NCBI GenBank assembly: GCA_028818995.1
Contig: JAPPMR010000661.1
Coordinates: 1-5,528, forward strand
Length of the DNA stretch: 5,528 bases
Direction of reading: 5' to 3'
Source of the DNA: Candidatus Poribacteria bacterium
GTDB taxonomy: Bacteria; Poribacteria; WGA-4E; WGA-3G
A model generated the notes under the pieces. That model made no database searches and was not told the origin of the DNA. It saw only the letters and a list, made by a program, of their open reading frames with translations. Each line of letters opens with the position of its first letter. Position 1 is the first letter of the stretch. Positions 2,737-5,528 of the stretch are shown here, in pieces. The position numbers and the translations under genes were made by a program.

Positions 2737-3573
2737 ATGTATACTATTCAATCCACTTTAACCGAGGAGGAAAAGTGGTATTTTGATTTACATGGTTTCC
2801 TTGTCTTGCGGAATGTTATTTCAAAGCACGAGATTGAGGAAATGTTGAAAGTGCTTCAGCATTGGCTCACAATTGACGAATCTGACATCCCACCGCCGTT
2901 GCACCGTGGGAGGCAAGAACCGTGTAAAACACATATAGGACATATCCAATATGGACATCGTTTATTTCAAGACCTTGCAATGAATCCTGACATTATGCGG
3001 GTTGTAGCGGGGTTAACTATGAACGCTCCGCGTCTTTTTCACAACAATTTCACGATGATGACAAAGCATGACTACCCTCAACATTTTCATCGTGATGATA
3101 GCGGGTTTAAGTTTCCATCAGGGTTTCGCAATCCGCACAACGATTATCAAGCTGCTTCGGGGCATATCTACTGTAATCATCTTGCGACGTGGGTTGCACT
3201 GGTAGACGTGCCACCCGGAACAGGATTTTGCCTTGTTCCTGGGAGTCATAAATCCCTATTTCAAACACCAGAAAATCTACCTGTCCGACACGATCCACCG
3301 ACTTCAATTACGTTACCGATGCAGGCAGGTGATGTTGCTATCTTCTCAACGAATCTACTTCACGATGCAAGTCCGTGGACAGAAGAATATCCGCGTATGA
3401 ACATTTTTCAACGGTATCAACTGAGTGTCTATTTCAATGAAGGCGGAAAGGGAGGGTATCCGTTTGAGGAACATCGTGATAAAATTTCGGAAGAACAGTA
3501 TGAACTGGAATCGTTTTCAAAAGAGATAAAGGCGGCTGTCCAACGTATTTTACCAAATGGAGGTGAAGAATGA
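2737..3573 (+). CDS. Phytanoyl-CoA dioxygenase (PhyH) family protein
   Basis: A 278-residue Fe(II)/2-oxoglutarate-dependent dioxygenase of the PhyH family, cytoplasmic, which hydroxylates a C-H bond while decarboxylating 2-oxoglutarate. The iron triad is visible: H118-R-D120 in H-F-H-R-D-D, and the distal His at 209 in N-L-L-H-D-A-S. R220, eleven residues later, is placed to hold the 2-oxoglutarate carboxylate. The P-G-S-H-K loop (about 169-173) and the Y-F-D-L-H-G-F-L-V-L start are typical of the family. I prefer ATG 2737, which has GGAG 6 nt upstream (2727-2730), over the GTG at 2725 that overlaps that site. The gene ends in TGA within an ATGA overlap with the SDR, so the two are translationally coupled. 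The family has many substrates besides phytanoyl-CoA, and none can be assigned here. Confidence 0.93.
   Translation: MYTIQSTLTEEEKWYFDLHGFLVLRNVISKHEIEEMLKVLQHWLTIDESDIPPPLHRGRQEPCKTHIGHIQYGHRLFQDLAMNPDIMRVVAGLTMNAPRLFHNNFTMMTKHDYPQHFHRDDSGFKFPSGFRNPHNDYQAASGHIYCNHLATWVALVDVPPGTGFCLVPGSHKSLFQTPENLPVRHDPPTSITLPMQAGDVAIFSTNLLHDASPWTEEYPRMNIFQRYQLSVYFNEGGKGGYPFEEHRDKISEEQYELESFSKEIKAAVQRILPNGGEE
3559..3563 (+). promoter_or_regulatory. Shine-Dalgarno of the SDR, inside the PhyH gene
   Basis: GGAGG, 6 nt before ATG 3570, embedded in the last PhyH codons. With the ATGA overlap it points to coupled translation. Confidence 0.7.
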
Positions 3574-4331
3574 AATTAAAGGAACAGGTGTGTATTATTA
3601 CAGGGGGTGGCAGCGGAATTGGTCGTGATGCTGCCCTAAAAATGGCACAAGAGGGTGCTACAGTTGTGATTGTTGGCAGAACAGTATCAAAGTTAATTGT
3701 CGTTAAATCTGAAATAGAAGCAATGGGTGGCACAGTAGTGAGTTGCGTACTTGATGTAGCAGACTATGATGCTGTCCAACAGATGGTCAGCGATGTGCTT
3801 GAGAAATTTGGTCGGGTTGATGTGCTTGTGAACAATGCAGGACACAGTTCGCACAATCGGCGGCTCCTCAATACGACACCTGAGGAGACACGCTCGGTCA
3901 TTGACTCAAACCTAATCGGCACGTTCTTCTGTACACAAGCGGTTGTGCCTGCGATGCTGAAAGCGAAATCGGGGACGATTATCAATATATCGTCGCTTGC
4001 AGCGGTTACGCCCGGACCTTTCAGTGGATTTGCTTATGGTGCTGCAAAATCAGGGGTAATTAATTTTACGGAGTTTCTGAACAATGATTTGAGGAATACA
4101 GGTGTTAGGGCAAGCGTTATCATTCCGGGTGAGGTAGCAACGCCGATTCTGGACAAACGTCCGATTCCGCCCGATGCCGATGCACGGACAACAATGGTAG
4201 ACGTTGCTGAAACATCAGCATCAATCCTTCTCATTGCGACTTTACCACAACGGAGTAACATACCGGAATTGGTTATTCGTCCGACAATGCATCGCGATAT
4301 GGCAGGCGAAGTCGTTGAATTAGACGATTGA
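3570..4331 (+). CDS. Short-chain dehydrogenase/reductase (SDR)
   Basis: A 253-residue classical SDR that oxidises or reduces an alcohol/carbonyl with NAD(P)(H) in the cytoplasm. Motifs in order are T-G-G-G-S-G-I-G (11-18) for cofactor binding, R37 after strand 2 (suggesting NADP), L-D62-V contacting adenine, N-N-A-G (88-91), N114, S142 and the Y156-x-x-x-K160 catalytic pair. P-G (186-187) follows. The C-terminal I-P-E-L-V-I-R-P-T matches a common SDR subgroup. GGAGG (3559-3563) lies 6 nt before the ATG, and the ATG overlaps the PhyH stop. The pairing suggests the SDR acts on the alcohol made by the dioxygenase, or in the same pathway. The stop is TGA, which matters for the codon argument in the next gene. 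It faces the DUF3179 gene with a 4-bp gap and no obvious terminator between. Confidence 0.94.
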   Translation: MKLKEQVCIITGGGSGIGRDAALKMAQEGATVVIVGRTVSKLIVVKSEIEAMGGTVVSCVLDVADYDAVQQMVSDVLEKFGRVDVLVNNAGHSSHNRRLLNTTPEETRSVIDSNLIGTFFCTQAVVPAMLKAKSGTIINISSLAAVTPGPFSGFAYGAAKSGVINFTEFLNNDLRNTGVRASVIIPGEVATPILDKRPIPPDADARTTMVDVAETSASILLIATLPQRSNIPELVIRPTMHRDMAGEVVELDD

Positions 4332-4335
4332 TAGA

Positions 4336-5528
4336 TTACGGTTTGTAAATTGTTGTTTCGGGATAGTAGCGTGCCCACGCGAACCAGTAGATATTGACAG
4401 CGGATAGCCGTTGCAAACGTGCCCCCTTGTGTTTACCCGATATCGCTTTACCTGTAATGAGATTCCATTCTGTGCCGGAATTATCTTGAGCGAAATAACC
4501 ATCCTTAGATGTAAAAATTATCGCCTTATTGTCTACGGCACGTTTAAAAACAGCGGTTGCAAACGACTCCTTGTCGTGAAAGATTAACAAAGGCACACCG
4601 TTAACTGAATCGTTGATTATAGCAGTTTTCGCAAATCGTGTAAGCGGATAGGCGCGATAGTACGTCTTACCAGCATCTTTGGTCTGGGTATGTGTAAGAT
4701 TACTTTGTGAACTGCCTCGTCCACCATCACCGCCATCGCCTCCGCGTCCACCAGCTGTGCCATCCTGTCCATCAGCGCCATCTTTTCCATCAGCACCGTC
4801 ATGTCCATCTATACCATCGGCACCGTCTTTTACCTGTACTTGGACTCCGATCACAAGGGATTTGTTAGGTAGCCTTTTATCGGTGTATCTCGTTCCACTC
4901 ACACCTGTATCTTGACTGGTGTGATACCCCTCATATACGTCACCTCGTGGAGGACTTTCGCGCTTACCCACAGACAACACTTTTGTCTTGGGGTAATTCT
5001 TCCGCCATGTTTTCCATGCGATTTGCGGCATAGAGGCAAGTGGTTTCAATTGCTTGCCTTTTAGTGGGCCCTCTATCGCTTCTCCTGTGATGTGAGACCA
5101 CAGGGAACGGGTCTGATGGTCATACATTAACAACGCATCTCGCCATAATTTGCCACTAACACCGAAAGTATAGGTTTTACCGTCGAGTTCCCGGCTATAC
5201 ACGATAGCCGTTTTACAGAGCGGTCACCATGTCGTTGCGATTTTCTGTCCACCGACAACATCGTTGACAATCTCATGTCCGTTCAGCAGATAGAGTGAGT
5301 AGGCATGACTTTCACCGTTGAATGTCACACCAATGACCGGAGCATCTGTGTCTAATTTTGCTTTGGCGGCAGGCACGAATTGCGGCTTTGTGATAGCGGG
5401 GATTGCATCAAACTTCAGTAAAGTTATGATTGGGTCTTTGTCGTGGTCTGCAGCAGTTACGCTGAGGGTAAAAGAGAGTAAAAAAGTGAGAATGATGTAG
5501 TTTCGCGAAAAGTAAAGTGTGCTTTTGG
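4336..5528 (-). CDS. Secreted DUF3179 protein, candidate selenoprotein with in-frame TGA (5' end beyond window)
   Basis: Read through the TGA at 5224-5226, this frame gives 396 residues with the start just outside the window. Residues 9-26 are a hydrophobic signal segment ending V-T-A-A, so the product is exported. The first DUF3179 half follows: a P-A-I-T-K-P-Q-F-V stretch, H84-E-I-V-N-D-V-V-G-G, W100-U101-P-L-C104, T-F-G-V-S-G-K-L-W, M-Y-D-H-Q-T, S-L-W-S-H-I-T-G-E-A-I (141-151), and A-W-K-T-W-R-K-N-Y-P. The family has Cys where the TGA falls (Y-C-P-L-C). A collagen-like insert (235-271) precedes a second half (290-396) with R-A-Y-P, I-I-N-D-S-V-N-G, E-W-N-L-I-T-G-K-A-I and W-F-A-W-A-R-Y-Y-P, which lacks the Cys motif. 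Function is unknown; the UxxC site suggests a redox or metal role outside the cytoplasm. A recent nonsense mutation or sequencing error remains possible. The stop is TAA. Confidence 0.8.
4714..4824 (-). repeat. Collagen-like Gly-X-Y repeat inside the DUF3179 protein
   Basis: Twelve consecutive Gly-X-Y triplets plus a final Gly (residues 235-271 of the visible chain). The first seven triplets are all G-x-D (GAD, GID, GHD, GAD, GKD, GAD, GQD), then GTA, GGR, GGD, GGD, GGR. The tract falls just after the N-K-S-L-V-I-G-V segment and before the second half's R-A-Y-P, a linker position in the family. It could form a short triple helix and trimerise the protein, or be a flexible acidic linker; twelve triplets is short for a stable collagen helix. 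The slippage-prone DNA repeat explains a Pro-rich antisense frame. Confidence 0.85.
5192..5210 (-). promoter_or_regulatory. Candidate bacterial SECIS hairpin
   Basis: On the mRNA strand CGGCUAU (5210-5204) pairs perfectly with AUAGCCG (5198-5192): 7 bp, loop CGUGU (5203-5199). The stem begins 13 nt after the UGA and the loop about 20 nt after it. Known bacterial SECIS elements sit inside the coding region just past the UGA, with the apical loop about 16-37 nt away and a G among the first two loop bases. All three criteria are met (G is the second loop base). SelB binding is inferred. Confidence 0.68.
5224..5226 (-). other. In-frame TGA, candidate selenocysteine codon
   Basis: This is the only in-frame stop between 5526 and the TAA at 4336-4338. 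It is followed by CCG CTC TGT (P-L-C) and preceded by TGG (W), so it replaces the first Cys of the conserved DUF3179 C-P-L-C motif. Cys/TGA interchange at a CxxC-like site is the classic mark of selenocysteine. The base after TGA is C, a context favouring readthrough. The PhyH and SDR genes both end in TGA, which argues against general reassignment. Confidence 0.72.

Follow-up and report, generated by a model that had tools for sequence, protein, structure and literature searches.

Does the single in-frame TGA codon of a DUF3179 gene from Candidatus Poribacteria end translation, or is it read as selenocysteine (Sec), and what would a selenol then do in this uncharacterized domain? The gene reaches the right edge of the window, the whole 5,528-nucleotide stretch of DNA analysed here (contig JAPPMR010000661.1). 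On the minus strand, its frame can be read from 5526 as far as the stop at 4336-4338 and is interrupted only once, by a TGA at 5224-5226, as a sequence-only reading of this DNA had stated. The signal-peptide-like stretch and HEIVNDVVGG that this reading placed 5' of the TGA, and PLCKTAIVY that it placed 3', are likewise present, the first as judged by eye. The read-through product (P0001) comprises 396 residues counted from 5526, with the TGA as residue 101, and belongs to DUF3179, scoring 253.6 bits against the PF11376 profile, whose cut-off is 27. In a relative that is 88% identical over the best segment (L001), the frame starts upstream of the window's signal-peptide-like N-terminus.

Table 1. 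Features of the DUF3179 gene in the window (repeat and insert boundaries given with ~ are approximate).
Feature	Position	Strand	Remark
Predicted DUF3179 selenoprotein gene	4336..5528	-	5' end past right edge; Pfam PF11376 E 3.4e-75
Signal-peptide-like N-terminus, residues 1-25	5452..5526	-	By eye only; start codon outside window
In-frame TGA, predicted Sec codon, residue 101	5224..5226	-	From comparison of loci and aligned proteins
Putative SECIS-type hairpin	5192..5210	-	Stem 5204-5210 with 5192-5198, loop CGUGU 5199-5203
Misannotated 288-aa ORF	4336..5202	-	GTG start inside hairpin loop; ORF list and P0002
Repeat 1, ~residues 62-186	4969..5343	-	Bears U-P-L-C motif; predicted Rieske-like fold
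Collagen-like Gly-x-x insert, ~residues 235-283	4678..4824	-	Between repeats; model mostly low confidence
Repeat 2, residues 286-396	4339..4671	-	Asp at Sec-equivalent place; predicted Rieske-like fold

Besides the window protein, 13 of the 50 relatives compared (L001-L007, L009-L011, L043, L044 and L049) have a collagen-like Gly-x-x stretch of variable length between the repeats, the other 37 having 4-10 residues there; the Pfam Collagen match to the inter-repeat insert lies below the cut-off of that family. A convergent plus-strand ORF (3570-4331), by eye a short-chain dehydrogenase, adjoins the end of the DUF3179 gene, and 45 of 56 loci share this opposite-strand ORF just 3' of the gene. 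Upstream, the most widespread family reaches at most 21 of these loci, so that the neighbourhood offers no operon clue. Elsewhere in the window, a minus-strand ORF at 1909-2598 (229 aa, TTG start) appears aldolase-like by eye and may be shortened relative to its kin.

The TGA codon falls on the motif cysteine

The earlier reading placed the TGA on the first Cys of a conserved C-P-L-C motif. Across 161 aligned proteins, this column is occupied by U (114 proteins) or C (47) and nothing else; the alignment covers proteins of more than 200 residues (leaving out L183, among others) and omits L059, L135 and L201. A check of homologues for Cys or TGA at the codon itself, which the same reading had proposed, gave 58 TGA and 2 TGC in the 60 related loci (of 62) that cover it. 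TGA also occupies the motif in 23 examined loci of the phylum with one TGA (L095-L117), some of which are copies of loci in the former count. Across the phylum, PF11376 matches occur in 74 of 84 genomes and a match with one internal TGA in 68 of 84, among them G041 with a degenerate copy; five genomes (G026, G027, G035, G038 and G039) additionally carry a paralogue that has Cys and no internal stop. P0004 is a full-length Cys form with 60% identity to the window protein, and hence Sec is not indispensable. At a contig end, a degenerate copy (L059/L201) has several stops besides the motif TGA. The Sec form appears to be the rule in DUF3179 across Poribacteria, which would add to the known DUF3179 selenoprotein family.

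A conserved hairpin follows the codon

Thirteen nucleotides past the TGA starts the perfect 7-bp hairpin CGGCUAU-CGUGU-AUAGCCG that the earlier reading had described. In the folding check suggested there, the hairpin is the minimum-energy fold, and its energy does not stand out from that of shuffled sequences (z -0.88; 37 of 200 shuffles fold equally well). An Rfam search of the window returned no match at E<=5. With the energy of this single hairpin unremarkable and Rfam without a match, the case for Sec is carried by comparative tests.

The codons that encode the hairpin do not drift. From U+5 to U+9 (ACG GCT ATC GTG TAT), there is zero synonymous variation in 56 divergent genes, obtained from 64 by thinning at 95% identity: a single codon serves for Thr in 54 of 54 genes, and for Ala, Ile, Val and Tyr in 56 of 56 each. 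In 100,000 resamplings of other codons, none was as extreme. The stem is complete in 56 of 56 Poribacteria Sec genes. Of 30 Sec genes from elsewhere with the same register, 24 show all seven pairs, three show six and three show five; among 28 Cys rows, which include one false motif (L194), none is fully paired. This count leaves out the Y-U-x-L-C genes, which use another register, L184/L185, L187/L188, L135 and L059/L201, together with the near-copies L095-L117 save L108 and L111; L100 has a mismatch in the stem.

The stem also covaries. In 36 Sec sequences (7 of the 39 distinct Poribacteria sequences and all 29 others), the covariation score is 0.523, versus 0.225 for shuffled and at most 0.112 for slid partners; the stem tested was that of the window hairpin, a choice that favours this register. 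Each of the seven stem pairs shows at least one change on both sides, and 96.4% of cells are paired. Among 25 Cys sequences, 41.7% of cells are paired, which is the shuffled level; this control is imperfect in that most Cys rows have Phe for Tyr at the loop. Four Cys rows retain Tyr there: L057, the sister of a Sec gene, forms six of seven pairs, and the others form 3, 4 and 5. With its G in the apical loop and its conserved structure, the hairpin is supported as a putative SECIS-type element.

Sec machinery and other readings of the TGA

In the 84 genomes of the phylum, matches over the cut-off were obtained for selA in 71, tRNA-Sec in 71, selB in 75 and selD in 75. The 68 genomes with a TGA-containing DUF3179 gene have all four factors in 53 cases, three in 11, two in 2, one in 1 and none in 1; at least three are thus present in 64 of 68, and four genomes have two or fewer (none in G047), a count made irrespective of genome completeness. 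From these sister genomes, we infer that the window's own organism would have the machinery as well. Sec machinery is already on record for sponge symbionts: in a Mediterranean sponge, SelA and SelB occur together in the majority of symbiont bins (PMC5649159). The SelD match itself contains one internal TGA in 75 of 75 matches over the cut-off (genomes G001-G089), which suggests that SelD of this phylum is likely a selenoprotein.

Three explanations would dispense with Sec. UGA might be a sense codon, for instance for Trp or Gly, in this organism, and genetic codes of that kind exist. The selB frames listed for the phylum have no internal stop, and the single internal stop in the listed selA frames is one TAA, so the phylum does not use UGA generally as a sense codon; moreover, the non-Sec homologues aligned have Cys, and not Trp or Gly, in 47 of 47 cases. 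We regard this reading as having a close to negligible probability. Scarcely more probable is a true stop in a pseudogene, whether by nonsense mutation or through an error of sequencing. Degenerate L059/L201 shows that decayed copies with several stops do occur, and the folding energy of the hairpin is not significant by itself; against this stand a TGA shared by dozens of genomes that were assembled separately, a hairpin without synonymous drift and compensatory changes in its stem.

It is about equally improbable that the real product is the 288-aa protein initiated at GTG 5202, the upstream part being a separate or regulatory frame. This start, which the earlier reading had called false, does head the frame in the ORF list, and its product is in the protein database as P0002 (100% identity over 73% of the P0001 query), where many relatives are likewise stored shortened. 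Yet the upstream part contains the near-invariant H84, E85, N88 and D89, is continuous with the remainder in Cys homologues such as P0004 and falls within one confident domain of the model, and the GTG coincides with the hairpin loop. Databases store this protein cut at its predicted Sec codon, here with the loop misread as a start codon. The reading of the TGA as Sec, directed by the hairpin 13 nt further on in a likely exported DUF3179 protein, is in our judgement almost certainly correct. A Sec-containing DUF3179 protein, as first proposed from the window alone, is favoured by TGA in 58 of 60 loci, by covariation at 7 of 7 pairs and by a Cys set at the shuffled level.

Sec and Cys forms beyond Poribacteria

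In the phylum of G017 (Acidobacteria), PF11376 matches were found in 91 of 297 genomes, with about 59 rows containing one internal TGA; in the 46 loci examined, the TGA lies at the same motif residue in every case. The motifs there include U-P-L-C, U-P-L-A, U-P-L-T/S/V, U-[T/S/V]-L-C, U-E-N-C, U-V-V-C and others. A Y-U-x-L-C subfamily (L151, L152, L154-L161 and L163-L169) has a hairpin of its own, CCACACC-GGUCU-GGUGUGG, 8 nt past the TGA, which is fully paired in 15 of the 16 genes caught by the search pattern; L167 was missed by the pattern.

On a tree of 117 thinned rows, Sec and Cys interchange at least six times, and starred branches force four of these changes. A single clade of 30 rows (support 98*) unites the main Poribacteria Sec genes. 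A larger group around it (77 rows, support 86, unstarred) is all Sec except for three Cys members, which, with the root placed by midpoint only, suggests losses of Sec.

The two forms differ in how consistently they keep the second Cys of the motif. All 47 Cys forms have a Cys three residues on; of the 50 Sec forms that fall outside the main Poribacteria clade, 21 are without it (Fisher p 8e-8, kinship-uncorrected). When the link between Sec and a lost second Cys was tested on independent pairs, no support emerged (median p 1), there being too few such pairs, and the contrast therefore stays uncorrected for kinship. The redox UxxC site claimed by the sequence-only reading is plausible for the window protein, but UxxC is not general among Sec forms.

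Predicted fold and possible function

Structure modelling predicts that the DUF3179 repeats adopt a tandem Rieske-like fold without cluster ligands. The Rieske ligand pattern C-x-H / C-x-x-H is absent from all 161 proteins; the window protein offers just residues 101 (U) and 104 (C), and we do not class it as a Rieske protein. A sequence search of solved structures yielded no convincing relative (best E 0.25). In hhalign comparisons with Rieske profiles, the whole alignment gave a probability of 9%, and repeat 2 gave 50%, or 14% with a deeper profile, a value reached by 0 of 200 controls; in the repeat 2 register, the Sec equivalent falls within a hairpin turn and at no ligand position. An idea formed by eye, that C-P-L-C corresponds to the Rieske C-P-x-H loop, found no support in hhalign: repeat 1 against Rieske scored 0.6%, and 0.17% with the deeper profile, where 121 of 200 shuffled controls were as good or better.

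Sequence comparison establishes the codon, the hairpin with its conservation and covariation, and the machinery of sister genomes. In the mechanism we propose, SelA would make Sec on its own tRNA from selenophosphate supplied by SelD, and SelB would bring the Sec-tRNA to the ribosome while binding the mRNA hairpin. Read-through would then yield, and the cell would export, the full protein with its signal peptide, two DUF3179 repeats and collagen-like linker. The selenol of residue 101, present in repeat 1 only, would be the catalytic redox group, paired with Cys104 as resolving partner where that residue is present. The function would be that of an exported selenol redox protein. Given that a second Cys is often absent from Sec relatives but retained by the Cys relatives seen, the selenol itself most likely carries the chemistry, in a reaction of reductase or peroxidase type.

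If Sec decoding is correct, the Sec/Cys site could still bind a metal or metalloid instead of performing thiol-type redox catalysis. The predicted fold is a scaffold for metal clusters, and the domain also contains a near-invariant His as well as acidic residues; the Rieske ligand motif is absent throughout the alignment, however, residue 101 matches no ligand position in the hhalign register and the second Cys is often missing from Sec forms. We consider metal binding unlikely, though a serious contender. To the wider proposal we give an even chance: that DUF3179 is a duplicated Rieske fold which lost its Fe-S cluster and runs on a single Sec or Cys pair in repeat 1, with Sec the rule across Poribacteria and a selenol able to make the second Cys dispensable.

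Discussion

By comparison of sequences, the gene is very probably a real selenoprotein gene and a well-supported member of an already listed selenoprotein family. The earlier reading did not recall DUF3179 as a catalogued selenoprotein family, which is mistaken: 'DUF3179 domain-containing protein, PF11376, UxxC/T' stands in the selenoprotein list of one review (PMC9312934), and the same entry in the list of a second (PMC13188914). The former credits the DUF3179 selenoprotein to a 2007 paper on an Olavius algarvensis symbiont. A plasmid record (H11) is already named 'DUF3179 domain-containing (seleno)protein', and one DUF3179 protein is named in an Idiomarina table. Within the literature searched, which excludes most subscription journals, no paper joins Poribacteria with selenoproteins or DUF3179 with Rieske, nor did we find there Sec as the rule in Poribacteria DUF3179, the second-Cys contrast or the tandem Rieske-like fold.

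What is added to the known family is therefore Sec as a probable phylum rule, the strength of the hairpin evidence, the differing need for a second Cys and the predicted tandem fold. An uncharacterized domain would gain a testable active-site residue (101) and a fold hypothesis, and Poribacteria would be a lineage where Sec is the rule in DUF3179. The family also provides a natural experiment, with the Cys forms seen always having a second Cys three residues on and Sec forms often lacking it.

Compared with known systems, the window hairpin resembles the bacterial SECIS, which PMC1088965 describes as a stem-loop directly 3' of the UGA, within the coding region, with a small apical loop containing guanosine; it differs in that its recognition by SelB is predicted and in having no Rfam counterpart. 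Relative to Rieske-domain proteins (for example, 2qpz, 4nbb, 3gce and NirD 2jo6), DUF3179 is without the C-x-H / C-x-x-H cluster ligands and consists of two tandem copies, with the Cys/Sec motif in the first. With the listed DUF3179 selenoproteins (PMC9312934 and PMC13188914), the window protein would share membership of PF11376, a Sec in place of the motif's first Cys and the UxxC arrangement, from which it is set apart by a collagen-like insert and by a clade in which the Sec form appears to be the rule.
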